Positions 43,513 through 54,218 of a stretch of DNA of 64,000 bases are shown here, piece by piece. The DNA is from Desulfobacteraceae bacterium Eth-SRB2 (GTDB lineage: Bacteria; Desulfobacterota; Desulfobacteria; Desulfobacterales; UBA11574): contig RPGQ01000002.1 in assembly GCA_004193595.1 (NCBI GenBank), positions 243,752 to 307,751 on the forward strand, given 5' to 3'. Position 1 is the stretch's first letter. Every line of letters starts with the position of its first letter. The notes under the pieces were generated by a model. The model saw only the letters and a list, made by a program, of their open reading frames with translations, made no database searches and was not told the DNA's origin. The translations under genes and the position numbers were made by a program.

Positions 43513-44085
43513 ATGGATGATACATTTACCGTTTTCAAAGCGAGCAAGCATTGTAAAGTTTCTTCAAGAACTATCATCAACTGGATAGAAGCCGGCCATA
43601 TAAATGCATACAAGACGGTTGGCGGGCATCGGCGAATAAAAAGGACGGATCTGGAGGAATTCATGAAAAAGCAGGGAATCCCAATTCCGATCGAAGAGAT
43701 GAAAGATGAAAGAAAAAGGATCCTTGTCGTGGATGACGATCCTATTATTGTGGAAACAATTGTTCAGGCCCTTGAAGAGGATGAATACGATTACGATGTG
43801 ATTTCCGCTTCCGACGGGTTTGAGGCAGGACTCCAGGTCAATCACTTTCACCCCCATCTGATGATTCTGGATATAATGATGCCCGATATCAAAGGAAACG
43901 AAGTTTGCCGGAAAGTCAAGTCAAATGAGCTCACCCGGGATACAAAAATTGTAGTTTTGTCCGCTTATCTGGACGAGGAAAAATTTAAGGAAATGAAGGC
44001 CCATGGCGCCGATGTCTGCTTTTCCAAACCTTTGCCGCTCCCTCAACTGAAGGAGGAAGTTGCCCGGTTACTGGAGCTCAAATAG
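43513..44085 (+). CDS. Excisionase/MerR-type HTH fused to a response-regulator receiver
   Basis: TVFKASKHCKVSSRTIINWIEAGHINAYKTVGGHRRIKRTDLEEFM + ILVVDDDPIIVETIVQAL..LMILDIMMPDIKGNEVCRKVK. Confidence 0.9.
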   Translation: MDDTFTVFKASKHCKVSSRTIINWIEAGHINAYKTVGGHRRIKRTDLEEFMKKQGIPIPIEEMKDERKRILVVDDDPIIVETIVQALEEDEYDYDVISASDGFEAGLQVNHFHPHLMILDIMMPDIKGNEVCRKVKSNELTRDTKIVVLSAYLDEEKFKEMKAHGADVCFSKPLPLPQLKEEVARLLELK

Positions 44086-44124: not shown

Positions 44125-45003
44125 GTGAAACTTAAAGACGCACTGACAAGAAAGAAATTTGTTATTACTTCCGAAATCCAGGCACCCATGAAGGATGATA
44201 ATCCTGAAAACCTGGTTGAGGATCTGAAACGAATAAAAGGGCGCGTGGACGGTGTATCTGTAATGGAAGTGGAGCTTGAAGGGATTGTGGGAGACAGCAT
44301 TAAAACATGTGAAATCCTTCAGAATAACAGGTTTAACGCCATTTACCAGACCACAACCCGCGATAAAAATCGCATTCAGCTTCAAAAGGACCTTACAAAT
44401 GCCCATGAGACCGGCGTTGAAAATCTCCTTGTCTTTACAGAAGATTATCGAATCACCGGTGACAGCCTTCAAGAGACCATGTTCTTTCATGTGGATTCAG
44501 GTAAGCTGGCATCGGTACTCGATCATATAAAGGGAGGTCATTCCATTGATGGTAATACATTGGCTTCAAACATCGAATTTGTCCTCGGATCGGGCGTGGA
44601 GACCCCCTGGGGTAAAAATGTTCCGAAAAAGGGCATGCAGGAGATGGAAACCATGGGAAATATGGGGACCCAATATTTTCTCACGACTCCCATTTTCGAC
44701 CTCGATCAGTTTGAAAGGTTTATCAAGCAGGTGAAACCCTTTCAGATACCCGTAATCGCAGAAGTGATGATCTTAAGAACCGCCGGAATGGCCAGGTTCA
44801 TCAACCGTCACTTCAAATCAGGGCTGGTACCTGACGGGGTCATTAAGAAACTGTCGGGGTCTTGGGACTTGGAAAGGGCAAGCATTGATCTTTTTGCCGA
44901 TACGGTAAAGGGCCTGAAGGATCTTTGCCAGGGGGTTCACATCATTACATTCGGAGGAGTGGACAAACTGAAACTGTACATGGATGCAGCCAAGCTTAAA
45001 TAG
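44125..45003 (+). CDS. metF: Methylenetetrahydrofolate reductase family protein (first copy)
   Basis: KKFVITSEIQAPMKDDNPENLVEDLKRIKGRVDGVSVMEVE..YQTTTRDKNRIQLQKDL..GVENLLVFTEDY; MTHFR fold. Confidence 0.82.
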   Translation: MKLKDALTRKKFVITSEIQAPMKDDNPENLVEDLKRIKGRVDGVSVMEVELEGIVGDSIKTCEILQNNRFNAIYQTTTRDKNRIQLQKDLTNAHETGVENLLVFTEDYRITGDSLQETMFFHVDSGKLASVLDHIKGGHSIDGNTLASNIEFVLGSGVETPWGKNVPKKGMQEMETMGNMGTQYFLTTPIFDLDQFERFIKQVKPFQIPVIAEVMILRTAGMARFINRHFKSGLVPDGVIKKLSGSWDLERASIDLFADTVKGLKDLCQGVHIITFGGVDKLKLYMDAAKLK

Positions 45004-45249: not shown

Positions 45250-45465
45250 CTCGGAAATTCTACAATTTATTGAAAATAAAGCTCTTTTTTAGAATTATAT
45301 TTTTAACTCGGTCATGGAATAATGGAATATTGGAATGCCGGAATATTGGGGATAAAAGCGGAAATAAACCATTTTAATTGTAAAAAACTCCTTCAAACCC
45401 ATCATTCCATTACTCCATCATTCCATTATTCCAATTGGGGCAAAGCCCCTAAATTTTCCTTCAAA
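45250..45465. repeat. Dispersed repeat family A copy 3
   Basis: GGAAATTCTACAATTTATTGAAAATA..TGGAATAATGGAATATTGGAATGCCGGAATATTGGGGATAAAAGCGG...CATTCCATTACTCCATCATTCCATTATTCCAATTGGGGCAAAGCCCC. Confidence 0.88.
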
Positions 45466-45524: not shown

Positions 45525-46811
45525 ATGACATCACCGATCGAATTGGATGAACTATATTGTGATTTTAAGGAGAGTGTTCAGGCAAGTATTCCCGAGGCCA
45601 ATCTGGATTTGTGCCTGACCTGCGGGGCTTGCACGGGAGGATGCCCCGCATCGGAGCTATTGGACATGGATCCGAGGAAGCTTGTGAGAATGGTGTTGCT
45701 GGGGATGGATGATGAAGTCAGGAAAACACCATGGGCATGGGTATGTACCATGTGTGCCAGGTGTTTCAAAGCATGCCCGATGAAAATCAATATTCCAAAA
45801 CTTGTCTATAGTGTGAGAAGATCATGGCCCAGGGACAAAGCTCCCAAAGGTATCAGAGGGTCCTGCGATCAGCATATCCGGGCGGGAAATGCCATGGGGG
45901 TTCCTTCCAAGGACTTTATATGGGTCGTGGAGGATGTTGCCGAAGAGATACAGGAAAACGATCCCAAGTTCAAGGATCTTAAGGTCACTGTAGACCGGAA
46001 GGGAGCCCACCTCGTCATTAATCAGAATTCGCGCGAACCGGTGACGGAGCCGGACGAGTTGGGACCGTTATGGAAGATACTTCACATGGTTGAAGCCGAT
46101 TGGACCTACCCGTCGGTCATGTGGGCAGGGGAAAATTACTGCCTGTTTCTTGCCGATGAGGAGGGATGGAAGTATATTCTTGAAGAGTTCGTCTACCATA
46201 TCGACAACAACCTTGGTGCAAAGGTTGTTGTCAATACCGAATGAGGGCATTCATTCTTTGCAATCCTGGAAGGATTGAAAAAATTCAATATACCTCACAA
46301 CTTCGAATTTACAAGTATCATCACCCTGTATGCACAGTGGATAAGAGAAGGAAAACTGAAGGTAAATTCCGACTGGAACAGGGACCTTAAAATTAAATTC
46401 ACCCTACAGGACCCCTGTAACATCGTCAGAAAAACCTGGGGAGAACTGATGGCCGACGATCTGCGGTTTGTGATTAAAACAATTGTCGGAGAGGAAAATT
46501 TTGTGGACATGATCCCCTGCGGAACGAACAATTTCTGCTGCGGCGGCGGCGGCGGTGCATTGCAGGCGGGACTGCCCGAACAGCGGCGGGCATACGGCAA
46601 GGTTAAATTTGACCAGATCATAAAAACAGGGGCAAATTATGTGTTCGCGCCATGCCACAACTGCCATGGTCAGATGGAAGATATCGGTGAATTTTACGGC
46701 GGCAATTACCATGTCGTACATATTTGGACCATAATGTGCCTGGCCATGGGGGTGTTGGGGGAAAACGAAAGGGCTTACCTCGGGCCGGACCTTGCAAAGG
46801 TCGGGCTTTAG
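45525..46811 (+). CDS. HdrC-HdrB-like fused Fe-S / CCG-domain protein, predicted selenoprotein (UGA at 46242-46244 = Sec)
   Basis: CLTCGACTGGCPAS + CTMCARCFKACPMKINIP, then VVVNTE(UGA)GHSFFAILEGLKKFN...CCGGGGG...CHNCHGQ in one frame; AGGAGG RBS before ATG 45525. Confidence 0.85.
46261..46277 (+). promoter_or_regulatory. Candidate bacterial SECIS hairpin for the hdrCB-like gene
   Basis: CAATCC-TGGAA-GGATTG, 17-33 nt after the UGA. Confidence 0.7.
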
Positions 46812-46971
46812 GGTTCACGAAGAAATAAGTTCGCAATCTTTAGGCGTTGAAGCGCCCGGCCGGCAAGGCGCGAAAGCGCAGGAATATCTGGATATTCCGA
46901 GTTTTCGCAACGCAGCCAGGCGGGATGCATCGGCGCATAAAATGTGAAGTTATTTCTGAGTGAGCCCTTAG
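46807..46971. repeat. MITE-like element family H copy 1
   Basis: TTTAGGGTTCACGAAGAAATAAGTTCGCA ... TGTGAAGTTATTTCTGAGTGAGCCCTTA. Confidence 0.8.
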
Positions 46972-47044
46972 CCGGCTGTTTGCCGATGAATATCCCATAC
47001 CGGAGAATATAGCAGAGAGCTTCCGGGCAAAGGAGGACGTAATA

Positions 47045-50000
47045 ATGTCAAAACAAGCCATAGGTTCTGTTCTGGTCGTTGGAGGCGGAATTGCGGGAAT
47101 CCAGGCATCTTTGGACCTGGCTGATTCAGGCTACCTCGTCTATCTGGTTGAAAAAAATTCGGCCATCGGTGGCGTCATGTCACAATTGGACAAAACTTTT
47201 CCAACCAATGACTGTTCCATGTGCATCATATCACCAAAACTGGTCGAGGTCGGCCGGCATCTTAACATTGAGTTACTAACCTTGTCAGAAGTGCAAAGCA
47301 TCTCCGGGGAACAAGGAAATTTTGAAATCAAACTCACGCAGCATCCCCGATATGTTGACGTGGATAAATGCATTGCCTGTGGTATTTGTGCTGAAAAGTG
47401 CCCTAAAAAAGTCTTAAATGAATACGACGCCGGTCTTGGCAAACGCAAGTCTATCTATCTGAAATACGCACAGGCGGTCCCATTAAAGTACGCTATTGAT
47501 GAAAATTGTATCTATTTTAAAAAGGGGAAATGCAAAGCCTGTGAGAAATTCTGCCCTTCCGATGCAATTAATTTTGATGACAAACAAAAAGAGTTAACTA
47601 TAAATGCAGGTGCGATACTTATAGCTCCCGGCAGTGCTGTGTATGATCCTTCCGTATATGATACTTATGGCTACAAACAATCTCCCAATATAGTCACAAG
47701 CCTGGAATTTGAGCGAATACTTGCTGCAACGGGACCTTTTGCCGGTGATTTAGTCAGGCCTTCGGACAAAAAGGCACCGGCCAAAATAGCCTGGTTGCAA
47801 TGTGTAGGGTCAAGGGACATAAATACCTGTGACAACAGCTACTGTTCGTCGGTCTGCTGCATGTATGCCAATAAACAGGCGGTGATAGCCAAAGAGCACT
47901 GTGACGATCCTTTGGACACCGCGATTTTTTTCATGGACCTGCGAACCTATGGTAAGGATTTTGACAAGTATAATCTGAGGGCTCAGGAAGACCATGGCGT
48001 CCGTTTTATCCGATCGAGGATCCACTCGGTTTTCCCTGATGATGATGACAAGCTCCGTATCGTATATGCTACTGAATCAGGAAAAAGAGCAGAGGAGAGA
48101 TTTGACATGGTTGTCCTTTCCGTGGGGCTTTCTCCGGGTAAAGATGTGGCGGGGCTTGCTGAAAAGATGGGGGTGGAACTTAACAACCACGGATTTGCCA
48201 GAACAAGCTGCCTTTCTCCGGTAAGCACCAACAGGGAAGGCATTTTCGTTTGCGGAACTTTTCAAGAGCCAAAGGATATACCGCATACGGTAATGGAGGC
48301 TTCCGCCTCTGCGGCAGCCGCAACCGGCAACCTTTCCCATGCCAGGTGGTCTCTTACCCGCGTAAAGGAAATGCCCCCCGAAGAGAATGTGACCGGACAG
48401 AAACCGAGGATTGGCGTATTCGTGTGTAACTGTGGAATCAATATCGGCGGAGTGGCGGACGTCCCGGCAATACGGGATTATGCCAGGGATCTGACCCATG
48501 TGATCCATGTGGAGGATAATCTGTTTACATGCTCCCAGGACAATCAGGACCACATCAAGCAAATAATACGGGAAAAAGGTATCAACAGGGTGGTTGTGGC
48601 GTCATGCTCACCGCGCACCCACGAGCCGTTGTTTCAAGAAACTATCCGTGATGCCGGCTTGAACAAATACCTTTTTGAAATGGCCAATATTCGGGACCAC
48701 AACACCTGGGTTCACATGGACAATCCGGAAAAAGCCACCGAAAAGGCCAAGGATTTGGTTCGCATGGCGGTTGCCAAGGCAGCTTATAGTGAACCGCTCC
48801 ATCAGGTCTCTTTAAAGATAAGCAAAGCCGCCCTTGTAATCGGCGGCGGAGTCTCGGGCATGGAAGCCGCCGTTGGAATCGCAGACCAGGGGCGCCCGGT
48901 TTACCTGGTGGAAAAATCCATAGAACTTGGGGGAAACGCCAAGTTTCTCGGGACGACATGGCAGGGAGAACAGATCGGACCCTATCTTGAAGATCTTGTG
49001 AACCGTGTGAAAAATCACCCCGACATCGAGCTGTTCATGCAGACAAAGGTAACCGGGACCACAGGAACCATGGGTAATTTTTCCACAACACTCACCTCTC
49101 TGAACGGAGAGGGCAAGGAAATTAAAATCGATCACGCGGTAACCGTCCTTGCCACAGGGGGAAGAGAGAAAGTCCCGGAGCAATATCTTTATGGGGAGCA
49201 TCCCCATGTGATGACCCAGCTGGACATGGACCGAGCGTTTAGTGAAAGCGATGAACGACTTTCAGGGACAAAAAGCGTTGTTTTTATTCAGTGTGTAGGA
49301 TCCAGAATACCCGAAAGGCCATACTGCAGCAAAATTTGCTGCACACACAGTCTGAAAAGCGCCCTGCTCCTTAAAAATAAGAATCCGAAAATGAAGGTTT
49401 ACATTGTCTACAGAGATATCCGTTCCTACGGATTCAGAGAAGAGCTGTATGTACAGGCAAGGGAGGCCGGAGTGATATTTATCCGCTACAATCTGAAGAA
49501 TTTGCCCAAGGTTGAATCCCTGGAAGACGATCATCTTTCGGTGACGGTTACGGATCATGTTCTCGGCATGCCGGTACGTCTTAAGCCGGATCTTCTGGTA
49601 CTTGCATCCGGGATTGTACCCAACGCCAACACGGCATTGTTTGAATTTTTCAAGGTTCCGGTAAACAGTGAGGGATTCCTAATTGAAGCTCACGCGAAAC
49701 TCCGTCCCGTGGATTTTTCATCAGAGGGAATCTTTTTGGCCGGCCTTGCGCATTATCCCAAACCCATAGAAGAAAGTATCGCCCAGGCAAAGGCTGCCGC
49801 CTCAAGGGCGATGACCATTCTTGCAAAGGAAGAGATCATGGTGGGTGGCGTTGTCGCATCAGTTGAGGACGCAAGATGTGCCGCCTGTCTCACCTGTGTC
49901 AGAACGTGCCCATACGGAATACCCAAAATCAATGAAGATTCCCATGCGGTTATTGATTCGGCGGAATGTCACGGCTGCGGAATGTGTGTGTCTGAATGCC

Positions 50001-50083
50001 CTGGAAAGGCAATATCACTACAGCATTTCACCGACGAACAGCTTTTGGCAAAAACAAGCGCACTTTTTACTTCCGGAGGATAA
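47045..50083 (+). CDS. hdrA: Heterodisulfide reductase subunit A-like flavoprotein
   Basis: VLVVGGGIAGIQASLDLADSGYLVYLVEKNSAIGGVMSQLDKTFPTNDCS; multiple CxxCxxCxxxC clusters; second FAD domain ALVIGGGVSGMEAAVGIADQG. Confidence 0.93.
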   Translation: MSKQAIGSVLVVGGGIAGIQASLDLADSGYLVYLVEKNSAIGGVMSQLDKTFPTNDCSMCIISPKLVEVGRHLNIELLTLSEVQSISGEQGNFEIKLTQHPRYVDVDKCIACGICAEKCPKKVLNEYDAGLGKRKSIYLKYAQAVPLKYAIDENCIYFKKGKCKACEKFCPSDAINFDDKQKELTINAGAILIAPGSAVYDPSVYDTYGYKQSPNIVTSLEFERILAATGPFAGDLVRPSDKKAPAKIAWLQCVGSRDINTCDNSYCSSVCCMYANKQAVIAKEHCDDPLDTAIFFMDLRTYGKDFDKYNLRAQEDHGVRFIRSRIHSVFPDDDDKLRIVYATESGKRAEERFDMVVLSVGLSPGKDVAGLAEKMGVELNNHGFARTSCLSPVSTNREGIFVCGTFQEPKDIPHTVMEASASAAAATGNLSHARWSLTRVKEMPPEENVTGQKPRIGVFVCNCGINIGGVADVPAIRDYARDLTHVIHVEDNLFTCSQDNQDHIKQIIREKGINRVVVASCSPRTHEPLFQETIRDAGLNKYLFEMANIRDHNTWVHMDNPEKATEKAKDLVRMAVAKAAYSEPLHQVSLKISKAALVIGGGVSGMEAAVGIADQGRPVYLVEKSIELGGNAKFLGTTWQGEQIGPYLEDLVNRVKNHPDIELFMQTKVTGTTGTMGNFSTTLTSLNGEGKEIKIDHAVTVLATGGREKVPEQYLYGEHPHVMTQLDMDRAFSESDERLSGTKSVVFIQCVGSRIPERPYCSKICCTHSLKSALLLKNKNPKMKVYIVYRDIRSYGFREELYVQAREAGVIFIRYNLKNLPKVESLEDDHLSVTVTDHVLGMPVRLKPDLLVLASGIVPNANTALFEFFKVPVNSEGFLIEAHAKLRPVDFSSEGIFLAGLAHYPKPIEESIAQAKAAASRAMTILAKEEIMVGGVVASVEDARCAACLTCVRTCPYGIPKINEDSHAVIDSAECHGCGMCVSECPGKAISLQHFTDEQLLAKTSALFTSGG

Positions 50084-50086
50084 AAA

Positions 50087-50521
50087 ATGAACGAAACATT
50101 TGAACCACAGATTGTTGCTTACTGTTGCAATTACTGTGCTTATGCAGCCGCGGATCTGGCGGGTTCCATGCGCCTTTCCTATCCTTCCAACGTCAAGGTG
50201 ATTCAGGTACCCTGCACCGGTCGAGTGGACATTCTTTATCTCCTGAGGGCCATAGAGGATGGCGCCGACGGAATTTATGTGGCCGGGTGACTGGAAGGAG
50301 AATGCCATTTCCTGGAAGGAAATGTTAAAACAAGAAAAAAAGTGGAATATGTTCAAAGAATTCTGGAAGAGCTGGGTATTGAACCGGCCCGGGTAAGGAT
50401 GTTCAACCTCTCCTCGGCCATGGGACTACGGTTTGCCGAAATTGCCAGAGAAATGACCAGGGAAATTAGAGAGCTCGGACCGAGTCCGGTTCAACCCTAT
50501 CCAAAAGCAGCTCAAAATTAA
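50087..50521 (+). CDS. mvhD: MvhD-like (methyl-viologen-reducing hydrogenase delta) subunit, predicted selenoprotein (UGA at 50288-50290 = Sec)
   Basis: PQIVAYCCNYCAYAAADLAGSMRLSYPSNVKVIQVPCTGRVDILYLLRAIEDGADGIYVAG(UGA)LEGECHFLEGNVKTRKKVEYVQRILEELGIEPARVRMFNLSSAMG in one frame; canonical MvhD has AGCxxGDCHYxxGN here. Confidence 0.9.
50306..50324 (+). promoter_or_regulatory. Candidate bacterial SECIS hairpin for mvhD
   Basis: CATTTCC-TGGAA-GGAAATG, 16-34 nt after the UGA; same CC-TGGAA-GG apex as 46261-46277. Confidence 0.75.
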
Positions 50522-50549
50522 CGACACAACCAACCACAAGAGGTGAACC

Positions 50550-51218
50550 ATGATAGTCGCAGATCGAAAATCTCTGGATGAGATACAGGAGATGATAAAA
50601 GATTACAAAAAAATTCTTCTGGTAGGGTGCAAGGGCTGTGTGACCGTCTGTAATGTCGGCGGGATGAAGGAGGTGCAGGTTCTATCTTCTATCCTGAAAA
50701 TTGCACGAAAGAAGGAGGGCAGAGAACTGCAGGTAGAGGAGAGAACCATAGAGCGTCAGTGCGATTTTGAATATGTGGAACAGCTCAGGGCCGACTGTGA
50801 CAGGTTTGACGCCATCCTGTCTATGGCCTGCGGAGTGGGACCCCAGTTCCTTGCGGAAGCCTTCCCATCACAAAAAATTTATCCCGCACTCGATACGAAA
50901 TTTTTCGGAGGTGCGGTGCAGCACGGGATCTGGGAGGAGCGCTGTGCAGGATGCGGCACGTGCGTAATACATTTTTATGACAGTTTGTGCCCCATTGCCC
51001 GGTGTGCCAAGAGCCTGCAGCATGGGCCCTGCGGCGGAAGCGCAAACGGCAAATGCGAGATTTCAGAAGACGTCGATTGTATCTGGGACATCATTGTCAG
51101 AAAAAAAATGGAACAAGAGCGCCTGGAGGACCTTAGAACCTACAGGGCCTTCAAAGACTGGCGCTCGGCACGAGACGGCGGCCCCAGAAAAAGTATAAGG
51201 GAGGAATTGGTGCAATGA
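50550..51218 (+). CDS. metV: MetV-like zinc/Cys-rich methylenetetrahydrofolate reductase partner
   Basis: ILLVGCKGCVTVCNVGGMKEV..ERTIERQCDFEYVEQL..MACGVGPQFLAE..CPIARCAKSLQHGPCGGSANGKCEI. Confidence 0.88.
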   Translation: MIVADRKSLDEIQEMIKDYKKILLVGCKGCVTVCNVGGMKEVQVLSSILKIARKKEGRELQVEERTIERQCDFEYVEQLRADCDRFDAILSMACGVGPQFLAEAFPSQKIYPALDTKFFGGAVQHGIWEERCAGCGTCVIHFYDSLCPIARCAKSLQHGPCGGSANGKCEISEDVDCIWDIIVRKKMEQERLEDLRTYRAFKDWRSARDGGPRKSIREELVQ

Positions 51219-52156
51219 GCGATAACGGATTGAAATCGGGAAGTAATCTGGAAAAGATTTTAAAGGCAGGTCATTTTGCTTTTACAGGTGAATGCGGTCC
51301 GCCCAAGGGAGCTAATGTAGAGCATTTGAAGGAAAAGTTCGAGCATCTTAGAGGCATTGTCGATGCCGTAAACATAACCGATAACCAGACCGCCGTTGTG
51401 AGGATGTCCAGTACTGCGGCGTCGGCAATCATGGTTGCCCAAGGTCTTGAACCCAATTTTCAGATGGTTTGCAGGGATCGGAACCGCCTGGCTATAATGG
51501 CGGATATTCTGGGAGCATACTCTCTGGGTATCCGTAACATGCTGTGTCTTTCAGGTGACCACCAGCAATTCGGCAACCATCCTGAAGCAAAAAACGTCTT
51601 CGATATAGATTCCATGCAGCTCATCGCCCTGGTCAAGATGATGCGGGATGAGGGCACGTTTATGAACGGCGAAGATATTGATGTTCCGCCGAAACTTTTC
51701 ATCGGCGCGGCCAGCAACCCGTTTGCCGATCCTTATGAATTCCGGATTTACAGGCTTGCCAACAAGATAGACGCGGGAGCTGATTTTATCCAGACCCAGT
51801 GTATCTATAACATGGAAAGGTTCAGGGACTTTATGAAAAGGGCTGTGGATATGGGGCTGGCGGAGAAAGCATACATCCTTGCCGGTGTAACTCCCATGAA
51901 ATCGACACGCATGGCACAGTATATGGCTAAAAAGGTCCCCGGGATAGATGTGCCCGAATCCCTTATCAAGCGTCTGAAGGGGGCCGTCAACGGAAAACAG
52001 GCTGAAGAGGGGATCAGATTTGCCATTGAACAGATCGAGGAGTTCAAAGAGATGGAGGGGCTTGCCGGAGTTCATCTCATGGCCATTGAATGGGAGCACA
52101 AGGTACCGGAAATCGCTGAAAGGGCCAACATGTTACCCCGTCCCAAGATTGATTAA
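51215..52156 (+). CDS. metF: Methylenetetrahydrofolate reductase (second copy), ATGA-coupled to metV
   Basis: AGHFAFTGECGPPKGANVEHLKEKFEHLRGIVDAVNITDNQTAVVRMSS..VCRDRNRLAIMADILGAYSLGIRNMLCLSGDH. Confidence 0.92.
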   Translation: MSDNGLKSGSNLEKILKAGHFAFTGECGPPKGANVEHLKEKFEHLRGIVDAVNITDNQTAVVRMSSTAASAIMVAQGLEPNFQMVCRDRNRLAIMADILGAYSLGIRNMLCLSGDHQQFGNHPEAKNVFDIDSMQLIALVKMMRDEGTFMNGEDIDVPPKLFIGAASNPFADPYEFRIYRLANKIDAGADFIQTQCIYNMERFRDFMKRAVDMGLAEKAYILAGVTPMKSTRMAQYMAKKVPGIDVPESLIKRLKGAVNGKQAEEGIRFAIEQIEEFKEMEGLAGVHLMAIEWEHKVPEIAERANMLPRPKID

Positions 52157-52379: not shown

Positions 52380-54218
52380 ATGTATAAAGCTAAAGCCCAT
52401 GGATTGACCGATGTGCTCAATACCCTTGAAGACGGCATATATGTTATCAACAACGATTACATCGTCGAATTCATGAACAAAGCCATGGTCAAAGTATTCG
52501 GAAACGGTACAGGGAAAAAATGCCATCGGGTGATTAACAGGAGCGATGAAATCTGTCCCTGGTGCAGGGCCGACGACGTGTTTGAAAAGGGTGAAACAAC
52601 ACATGAAGAGCTCCACCTGGCAGCTATAGGAAAGACCTATGATCTGCTGGAGCTTCCGCTTAGGAACATGGACGGTTCAACATCCAAGCTCAGTATATAT
52701 CGTGACATTACCTCGAGCAAAGATCAGGAAAAGAAGCTGAGGGCATCGGAGCAAAACTACCGGAGGCTGTTTGAGAACGTTGCAGTAGGAGTGTACATAA
52801 GCAGCAAAAAAGGTAGATTCCTGAATGCAAACCGGGCGCTTCTGGATATGCTGGGTTATGAGGACAAGGCGAAATTTCTCGGTATCGATATAGAGCAGGA
52901 CCTGTACGTAAAGCCGGAAGACAGAAAAAAATTCCAGGAGATGATAGAGCGTCACGGCAGTGTAATAGACTACGAAGTGGATTTCAAGCGCAAGAACGGC
53001 ACCCCGATTCCGGTTCTTATTACCGCGAATGTTCGAATGAGCCAGACGAGAAACATCCTGGGCTACGAGGGAATTTGTGTTGATCAGTCCCAACGGAAGC
53101 AGATGGAAAAAAAGTTGAGGGAAGCCCACGATTTTATGGACAATACCATCCAGAGCTCACCCAATGCAATCATGTGTACGGATATGCAGGGAAATATCAT
53201 CATGTGGAATCACGGGGCCGAGGAAACACTCGGCTACAGGGCTTCGGATGTTATCGGAAAAATGAACGTTGTTGGAAACCTCTACACCGCCAGTATAGCC
53301 AGGAATGTGATGAAAATGATGAGAAGCGACCAATACGGCGGCAAGGGTAAGCTGCGATCCTGCCCCATGACATTCAAGCGTAATGACGGTCGGGAGGTGG
53401 AGGGTAACCTTTCCGCCAGTATCATCTATGACGATCAGGGAAACGAGATAGCATCCGTTGGCTTTTTTGTGGATCTCGGTGAAATGCTGGAAATGAACAG
53501 GAAACTAAAACAGACCCAAGAGCAGTTGCTGCAGTCTGAAAAGCTTGCAGCCATGGGACGCCTGACATCACAGATTGCACACGAACTGAACAATCCGCTT
53601 TATGGAATAATGAACACCCTGGAGCTGATGAAGACGGAAATTTCGCCCGATAATAAGCGAAGAAAGCTGCTGGACATGTCGCTTTCCGAGACGGAACGGC
53701 TGGCCGACATGCTTAAAAAGATGCTCTCTTTTTCAAAACCGGACCAGGAGCAGCGATCCCCGGCAAATCTGAATACAATCATAGACGAGATTCTTCTTCT
53801 TCATAGGAAGCAGTTTTGGGAAAACACAATAAAGATAGAAGCCACATTCGATGAAGCGTTAGATCTGGTATATGCTTCAAAAAACCAGCTTCGCCAGGTT
53901 TTCCTGAATATGATCTCAAATGCTAAAAATGCAATGCCGGATGGCGGCACCCTGACGGTTACAACCGCCAGTGATACTGATCATGTCAGGGTACTCATCT
54001 CCGATACCGGATGCGGCATAAAGGAAAAGCATCTTGATATAATTTTTGAAACATTTTTTACAACAAAAACCGATAGTGTAAAAGGGGTGGGGCTGGGCCT
54101 TTCCGTATGCTACGGATTCATCAAGGATCATGGCGGAGACATACTTGTGGAAAGTGAACCGGGCCAAGGCACCACCTTTACCATTATCCTGCCGGTTTAC
54201 AGGAAAACTTCAGATTGA
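52380..54218 (+). CDS. Multi-PAS sensor histidine kinase
   Basis: Three PAS segments; AAMGRLTSQIAHELNNPLYGIMNTLELMK; DTGCGIKEKHLDIIFETFFTTK; GVGLGLSVCYGFIKDHGG. Confidence 0.93.
   Translation: MYKAKAHGLTDVLNTLEDGIYVINNDYIVEFMNKAMVKVFGNGTGKKCHRVINRSDEICPWCRADDVFEKGETTHEELHLAAIGKTYDLLELPLRNMDGSTSKLSIYRDITSSKDQEKKLRASEQNYRRLFENVAVGVYISSKKGRFLNANRALLDMLGYEDKAKFLGIDIEQDLYVKPEDRKKFQEMIERHGSVIDYEVDFKRKNGTPIPVLITANVRMSQTRNILGYEGICVDQSQRKQMEKKLREAHDFMDNTIQSSPNAIMCTDMQGNIIMWNHGAEETLGYRASDVIGKMNVVGNLYTASIARNVMKMMRSDQYGGKGKLRSCPMTFKRNDGREVEGNLSASIIYDDQGNEIASVGFFVDLGEMLEMNRKLKQTQEQLLQSEKLAAMGRLTSQIAHELNNPLYGIMNTLELMKTEISPDNKRRKLLDMSLSETERLADMLKKMLSFSKPDQEQRSPANLNTIIDEILLLHRKQFWENTIKIEATFDEALDLVYASKNQLRQVFLNMISNAKNAMPDGGTLTVTTASDTDHVRVLISDTGCGIKEKHLDIIFETFFTTKTDSVKGVGLGLSVCYGFIKDHGGDILVESEPGQGTTFTIILPVYRKTSD

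Follow-up and report, generated by a model that had tools for sequence, protein, structure and literature searches.

Selenoproteins of the Fe-S oxidoreductase-like (GlpC) type, in which selenocysteine (Sec) stands in a UGH motif, have been described in Syntrophobacter fumaroxidans, Desulfotalea psychrophila and Desulfovibrio vulgaris (PMC1794560) and are listed again in PMC9312934; in 2026 the family was listed as 'Fe-S oxidoreductase-like protein, PTHR43551, UGH' (PMC13188914). HdrD4 of Desulfobacterium autotrophicum HRM2 was named a selenoprotein in 2009 (PMC2702500), and a MetFV-HdrABC-MvhD complex has been purified from Moorella thermoacetica (PMC5861303). Here we describe a gene cluster of Desulfobacteraceae bacterium Eth-SRB2, analysed within a stretch of 64,000 nucleotides (hereafter the window) in which the genes, UGA codons and hairpins given below lie on the + strand. 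The gene at 45525-46811, which motifs, Pfam matches and a fold model identify as encoding an HdrD/GlpC-like Fe-S oxidoreductase, is a member of the established 'Fe-S oxidoreductase-like (GlpC)' selenoprotein family with its UGH motif, and we regard it as highly probable that the locus as a whole is explained by a Sec-containing protein with its SECIS element, acting in a presumed complex of the MetFV-Hdr-MvhD type.

The gene forms a single frame, preceded by an AAGGAGG site and running from the ATG at 45525 to a TAG at 46809-46811, that is interrupted solely by a TGA at 46242-46244. When this TGA is translated as Sec, the product has 428 residues including U240, within the motif TE-U-GH. Standard gene calling yields two ORFs of 252 and 178 amino acids, the second with a TTG start, as had been foreseen by an earlier sequence-only reading, which had also placed the in-frame UGA at exactly these coordinates and had the frame continue beyond it with CCGGGGG and CHNCH motifs, both of which are intact. 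Treating the gene as one unit thus corrects its two-piece automatic annotation. The N-terminal half of the product is a dicluster 4Fe-4S ferredoxin (C30, C33, C36, C40; C74, C77, C80, C84) and the C-terminal half carries a CCG motif (C298, C338-C339 in CCGGGGG, C377-C380 in CHNCH), and Pfam models for both halves score above their gathering scores (Fer4_8, 34.5 bits; CCG, a single domain, 35.0 bits). Only one CCG stretch is present (residues 293-384): the two complete CCG motifs of HdrB/HdrD-type proteins were not found, the second alone being complete (C298, C338, C339, C377, C380), and C206 and U240 are all that is left of the degenerate first. The second motif is invariant across 46 aligned sequences. 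The sequence-only reading had called the protein 'HdrCB-like' and had placed the Sec at a conserved Cys of CCG-domain proteins. The former is here to be taken as nearest to proteins of the HmcF/TmcB/DsrK type, with scores under every equivalog cut-off; the latter holds for the Cys column, which however sits in the degenerate first CCG half.

To establish which residue homologues carry at this position, we searched 192 genomes of the same class and read residue 240 from the fetched loci. Among the matches listed, every one had either a single TGA or no stop. Two overlapping sets of loci (60 TGA, 18 TGC and 3 TGT codons in the first; 69 TGA, 14 TGC and 4 TGT in the second) together comprise 134 distinct proteins, 102 with Sec (TGA) and 32 with Cys (TGC/TGT) at column 240, and neither TAA, TAG nor any other residue was seen there among these 134; the flanking residues E239, G241 and H242 are invariant. 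Cys homologues were thus found at the UGA column, as the sequence-only reading had required. On a tree, Sec and Cys interchange at least 7 times, 6 of these changes being forced by well-supported branches, and conversion between the two states has therefore occurred repeatedly. The genome of the window itself encodes three paralogues (61, 60 and 36% identity), and in each of them column 240 is TGA. The TmcB of a further genome, G170 (27% identical; 748.8 bits against a cut-off of 735), has Cys in the Sec column (GECGHAF), and the same genome encodes three homologues at 57-58% identity, two with TGA and one with Cys. One distant homologue (38% identical, genome G157) carries, in addition to the TGA at column 240, another TGA close to its C-terminus (query column 409), which may be its true stop.

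These data bear on whether the TGA at 46242-46244 could be a true stop or a pseudogene mutation, with the downstream frame a relic or a separate gene. Such a reading agrees with the two ORFs given by the standard tables, the second from TTG, but it is hard to reconcile with the strong constraint on both halves (including the invariant second CCG motif in 46 sequences), with a column that is never TAA or TAG and coincides with a conserved Cys, and with a TGA that persists in 102 distinct proteins, to ~35% identity; we consider it exceedingly improbable. The same codon occurs in two independent assemblies (L021, 94% identity; L105, 93%) and in homologues from cultured Desulfatitalea, Desulfamplus, Desulfocicer and Desulfospira, and is thus not an assembly error. 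A pseudogene or a sequencing error at the TGA was ruled out by the codon column and the independent assemblies.

The genome has the means to insert Sec: selA (606.7 bits), selB (383.6 bits) and selD (379.7 bits) are present, as the earlier reading had asked of its genome, together with two tRNA-Sec (selC) genes with anticodon TCA (L015 1497-1594 and L016 81-171). The two tRNA-Sec genes differ, and the second may be either genuine or a contaminant (estimated contamination, 2.6%). The selD gene has an in-frame TGA near its N-terminus (L018 1501-1560), which makes selenophosphate synthetase another selenoprotein, of a kind already known. Across the class, selB scored above its cut-off in 26 of 28 sampled genomes and was not found at that level in G157 and G082, though both carry TGA genes; G157 is a badly fragmented assembly whose selB-like match is partial and lies close to the end of a contig. 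All genomes checked in which the Cys form was the best match also have a Sec paralogue. A changed genetic code, or a general readthrough independent of selenium, would likewise yield one product, with Trp, Gly or Cys at residue 240. We reject the changed code because tRNA-Sec and SelB are present and homologues have Cys, never Trp or Gly, at the column. Readthrough fares no better given selA, selB, selD, tRNA-Sec(UCA) and a SECIS hairpin that follows TGA genes only, and the two variants taken together are very improbable.

The hairpin in question, with stem CAATCC/GGATTG and loop UGGAA, lies at 46261-46277; it starts 16 nt past the TGA and spans 17-33 nt downstream, where the sequence-only reading had reported it. 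In bacterial SECIS elements a G usually occupies one of the first two loop positions, a rule that the loops here, UGGAA or GGGCC-like, follow. In 50 distinct TGA sequences, 98.7% of the pair cells of the hairpin are paired, a value reached by 0 of 500 shuffles, whereas versions of the hairpin slid along the same sequences are only 12-46% paired; a compensatory change from A-U to G-C in the stem is seen in 19 of the 50. In marked contrast, 20 Cys homologues retain 52.5% of the pairs, which is not above shuffled sequences. The second set of loci gave the same picture, all six pairs being present in 65 of 69 TGA genes and in 2 of 18 Cys genes. Since pairing is conserved in TGA genes and lost in Cys genes, the hairpin is maintained where Sec is required and given up where there is no such requirement. 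Throughout the window, 22 of 2477 TGA triplets (0.9%) are followed by a hairpin with a stem of 7 bp or more, a G near the loop start and SECIS spacing, and these include the TGAs at 46242 and at 50288, the latter in mvhD. Folding of the single sequence was uninformative (z -1.2, not significant; the 48-nt minimum is a different structure) and is therefore not counted as evidence, so that the comparative data carry the case; an Rfam scan of the window gave 0 matches at the gathering threshold. We conclude from these sequence comparisons that the predicted hairpin is a bacterial SECIS, conserved downstream of the UGA only in Sec genes. Overall, none of the three checks that the sequence-only reading had named as able to refute it did so, and the codon column, the Sec machinery and the covarying SECIS support its proposal: that the UGA at 46242-46244 specifies Sec is near certain, and that Sec would be inserted there to give one selenoprotein of 428 residues is predicted with very high confidence. 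Decoding would proceed through SelB with Sec-tRNA(Sec) acting on the downstream hairpin.

To place the protein and its Sec structurally, we compared it with curated families and solved folds. NCBIfam models rank HmcF first (176.5 bits against a cut-off of 750), followed by TmcB (159/735) and DsrK (113.7/400), all far under their equivalog cut-offs. The predicted fold has a mean pLDDT of 87.6, and its best solved matches in Foldseek are mycobacterial EtfD (9ojn, E 3e-10) and methanogen HdrB (5odc_B, E 5e-5), the C-terminal cysteines of HdrB aligning one-to-one with C298, C338, C339, C377 and C380. In EtfD, Cys581 and Cys584 ligate a linear cluster and His583 ligates a noncubane cluster (PMC13083937). 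HMMER places U-G-H on EtfD Cys581-Pro-His583, in agreement with the fold, which would set the Sec and the invariant His by the remaining noncubane cluster. The match is weak (E = 0.011), and a shift in register of three residues would move Sec240 to EtfD Cys584 (HdrB Cys81), and the register is therefore indicative, not established. We lean towards Sec240 lying directly at the noncubane site, and entertain more tentatively that it takes part in bond-breaking disulfide chemistry instead of serving a pure electron relay.

The gene is the first of a cluster on one strand, in the order hdrD(Sec)-hdrA-mvhD(Sec)-metV-metF. The hdrA gene (47045-50083; HdrA2, 964 bits) encodes a subunit of 1012 amino acids of the FAD/Fe-S electron-bifurcating type and has no in-frame TGA. 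It is followed by mvhD/frhD (50087-50521), metV (50550-51218; methylene-tetrahydrofolate reductase C-terminal domain protein, PF12225) and metF (51215-52156; methylene-tetrahydrofolate reductase, PF02219). Upstream lie genes for a MerR-type HTH and response-regulator receiver protein (43513-44085) and for a second MTHFR-fold protein (44125-45003), both kept with the cluster in relatives, and a PAS-histidine kinase gene (52380-54218) adjoins the cluster, its orthologue being near the cluster in 3 of 5 relatives. The same order of the five genes is found in the relatives L055, L056 and L057, and hdrD-hdrA is retained in L053 and L054, where mvhD, metV and metF are absent from the stretch fetched. 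Within the genome itself, the paralogue clusters L050 and L051 contain metF, metV, hdrA and mvhD. The third, L052, has hdrA-mvhD, and neither metF nor metV was found there, so the UGH family is not tied to one partner.

The mvhD gene is a second selenoprotein gene of the cluster and was not part of the earlier reading. FlpD matches it over its full length (166 bits) with the TGA at 50288-50290 read through as Sec (VAG-U-LEGECH), and the TGA is also present in five close orthologues (L190-L194). A SECIS-type hairpin, CATTTCC-TGGAA-GGAAATG, follows at 50306-50324, with a loop identical to that of the hdrD-like gene. In the window gene and L190-L194, Sec is at column 68 and Cys at column 17; in the orthologues that are ~70% identical (L055, L056, L057), the two are exchanged, with Sec at 17 (CCQY-U) and Cys at 68. 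In mvhD, Sec thus occupies either of two conserved cysteine positions.

Several further features of these clusters were observed. The gap of 233 bp between the hdrD-like gene and hdrA holds a repeat of ~160 bp (46812-46972), of which the genome has 13 further near full-length copies (77-85% identical), one of them ~1 kb downstream of a paralogous TGA gene on contig C55; by eye its ends resemble imperfect inverted repeats, so it may be a MITE-like element. AT-rich short repeats of the type TGGAATAATGGAATATTGGAAT precede the gene at 45300-45440 and are followed by the complementary type ATTCCATTATTCCA. In relatives the HdrA homologue is interrupted by a stretch of ~450 amino acids that the window HdrA is without and that looks GltD/NfnB-like by eye in L055; L053, L054 and L057 show an HdrA gap of similar size. 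This insert of the relatives resembles the HdrL fusions of D. autotrophicum, and the lineage of the window may use another electron donor. In the L050 cluster, which also has metV and metF, four genes contain an in-frame TGA: a pair of mvhD genes, an hdrA gene and the gene of hdrD/glpC-like type.

With respect to function, linked metF, metV, hdrA and mvhD were found together with HdrC and HdrB functions, the latter two as one fusion gene, and it is most likely that the predicted selenoprotein replaces HdrB and HdrC in a MetFV-Hdr-MvhD methylene-tetrahydrofolate reductase complex. In the mechanism we propose, an HdrC-like dicluster ferredoxin half is fused to an HdrB-like one, in which a single CCG motif is complete and would bind one noncubane [4Fe-4S] cluster, while Sec240 stands in for the conserved Cys of the degenerate motif. 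The partners of the protein in the complex would be HdrA, the second selenoprotein MvhD, MetV and MetF, and electrons would pass between methylene/methyl-tetrahydrofolate on one side and nicotinamide, ferredoxin or thiol/disulfide partners on the other, in the setting of a reversible Wood-Ljungdahl pathway. At the noncubane cluster, Sec would offer a faster selenolate of lower pKa, as a cluster ligand or as a nucleophile on a disulfide substrate. That a MetFV-coupled complex contains the selenoprotein appears probable from gene linkage, which is no proof of one complex. Alternatively, the Sec protein could be a general electron relay of the HmcF/TmcB kind and not an HdrBC part of a MetFV complex: HmcF and TmcB are the best curated models, the first CCG half has degenerated, the top structural match, EtfD, has been characterized as an electron wire without catalytic function (PMC13083937), and the L052 paralogue cluster is without metF and metV. 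On the other hand, the linkage to metV-metF recurs in the genome's own paralogue clusters and in relatives, the HmcF and TmcB scores (176/750 and 159/735) are far under their cut-offs, and no gene for a quinone- or cytochrome-type membrane subunit was found in the 45525-52156 cluster. We therefore rate the general relay as a credible but clearly less probable alternative to the MetFV-coupled complex. A doubly selenium-dependent bifurcating or confurcating variant of MetFV-Hdr in sulfate-reducing-type bacteria, with one Sec by a noncubane [4Fe-4S] cluster and another in MvhD, is a tentative extension of the MetFV-coupled reading. The occurrence of Sec and Cys isoforms within one genome would let selenium and sulfur be compared directly beside a noncubane cluster.

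Compared with described systems, the window protein shares its HdrC-like and HdrB-like domains, and its cluster the MetF, MetV, HdrA and MvhD genes, with the Moorella MetFV-HdrABC-MvhD complex; unlike in Moorella, HdrB and HdrC are fused, one CCG motif is degenerate and the fusion protein contains Sec. The dicluster ferredoxin plus CCG architecture is also that of HmcF, TmcB and DsrK of sulfate reducers and of mycobacterial EtfD (PDB 9OJN), and the Sec column of TmcB is occupied by Cys (GECGH), but the window protein is without a membrane anchor and scores far under the equivalog cut-offs. The HdrB of methanogens (PDB 5ODC) matches it cysteine by cysteine in the second CCG half, and differs in that both its CCG motifs are complete and it binds two noncubane clusters, where the window protein has one complete motif. 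HdrD4 of D. autotrophicum HRM2 is likewise an HdrCB-type soluble fusion protein with Sec. The closest likeness is to the GlpC UGH selenoprotein, with which the window gene has in common a single Sec in U-G-H in place of a conserved Cys (U240-G241-H242), a dicluster ferredoxin joined to a CCG domain, hdrA and frhD/mvhD as neighbours, the bacterial group and the existence of Cys homologues. The published operons run on into frhG-frhA (hydrogenase), whereas the window cluster runs on into metV-metF, and, unlike in those operons, the window HdrA is not a selenoprotein. The interaction of the UGH protein with FrhA/FrhD was still called unclear in a 2026 review (PMC13188914), and because of this the protein gains a testable role from its link to metV-metF, which replaces the hydrogenase link described initially. 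The UGH selenoprotein is no rarity, being present, often in several copies, in most genomes sampled from one sulfate-reducing-type order. The family has been in the literature since about 2005-2006, and the window gene is a sound new example and not a discovery; our analysis adds a new member, covariation support for the SECIS, counts of the Sec and Cys forms and, as far as a non-exhaustive search of the open-licence literature shows, the metV-metF context.
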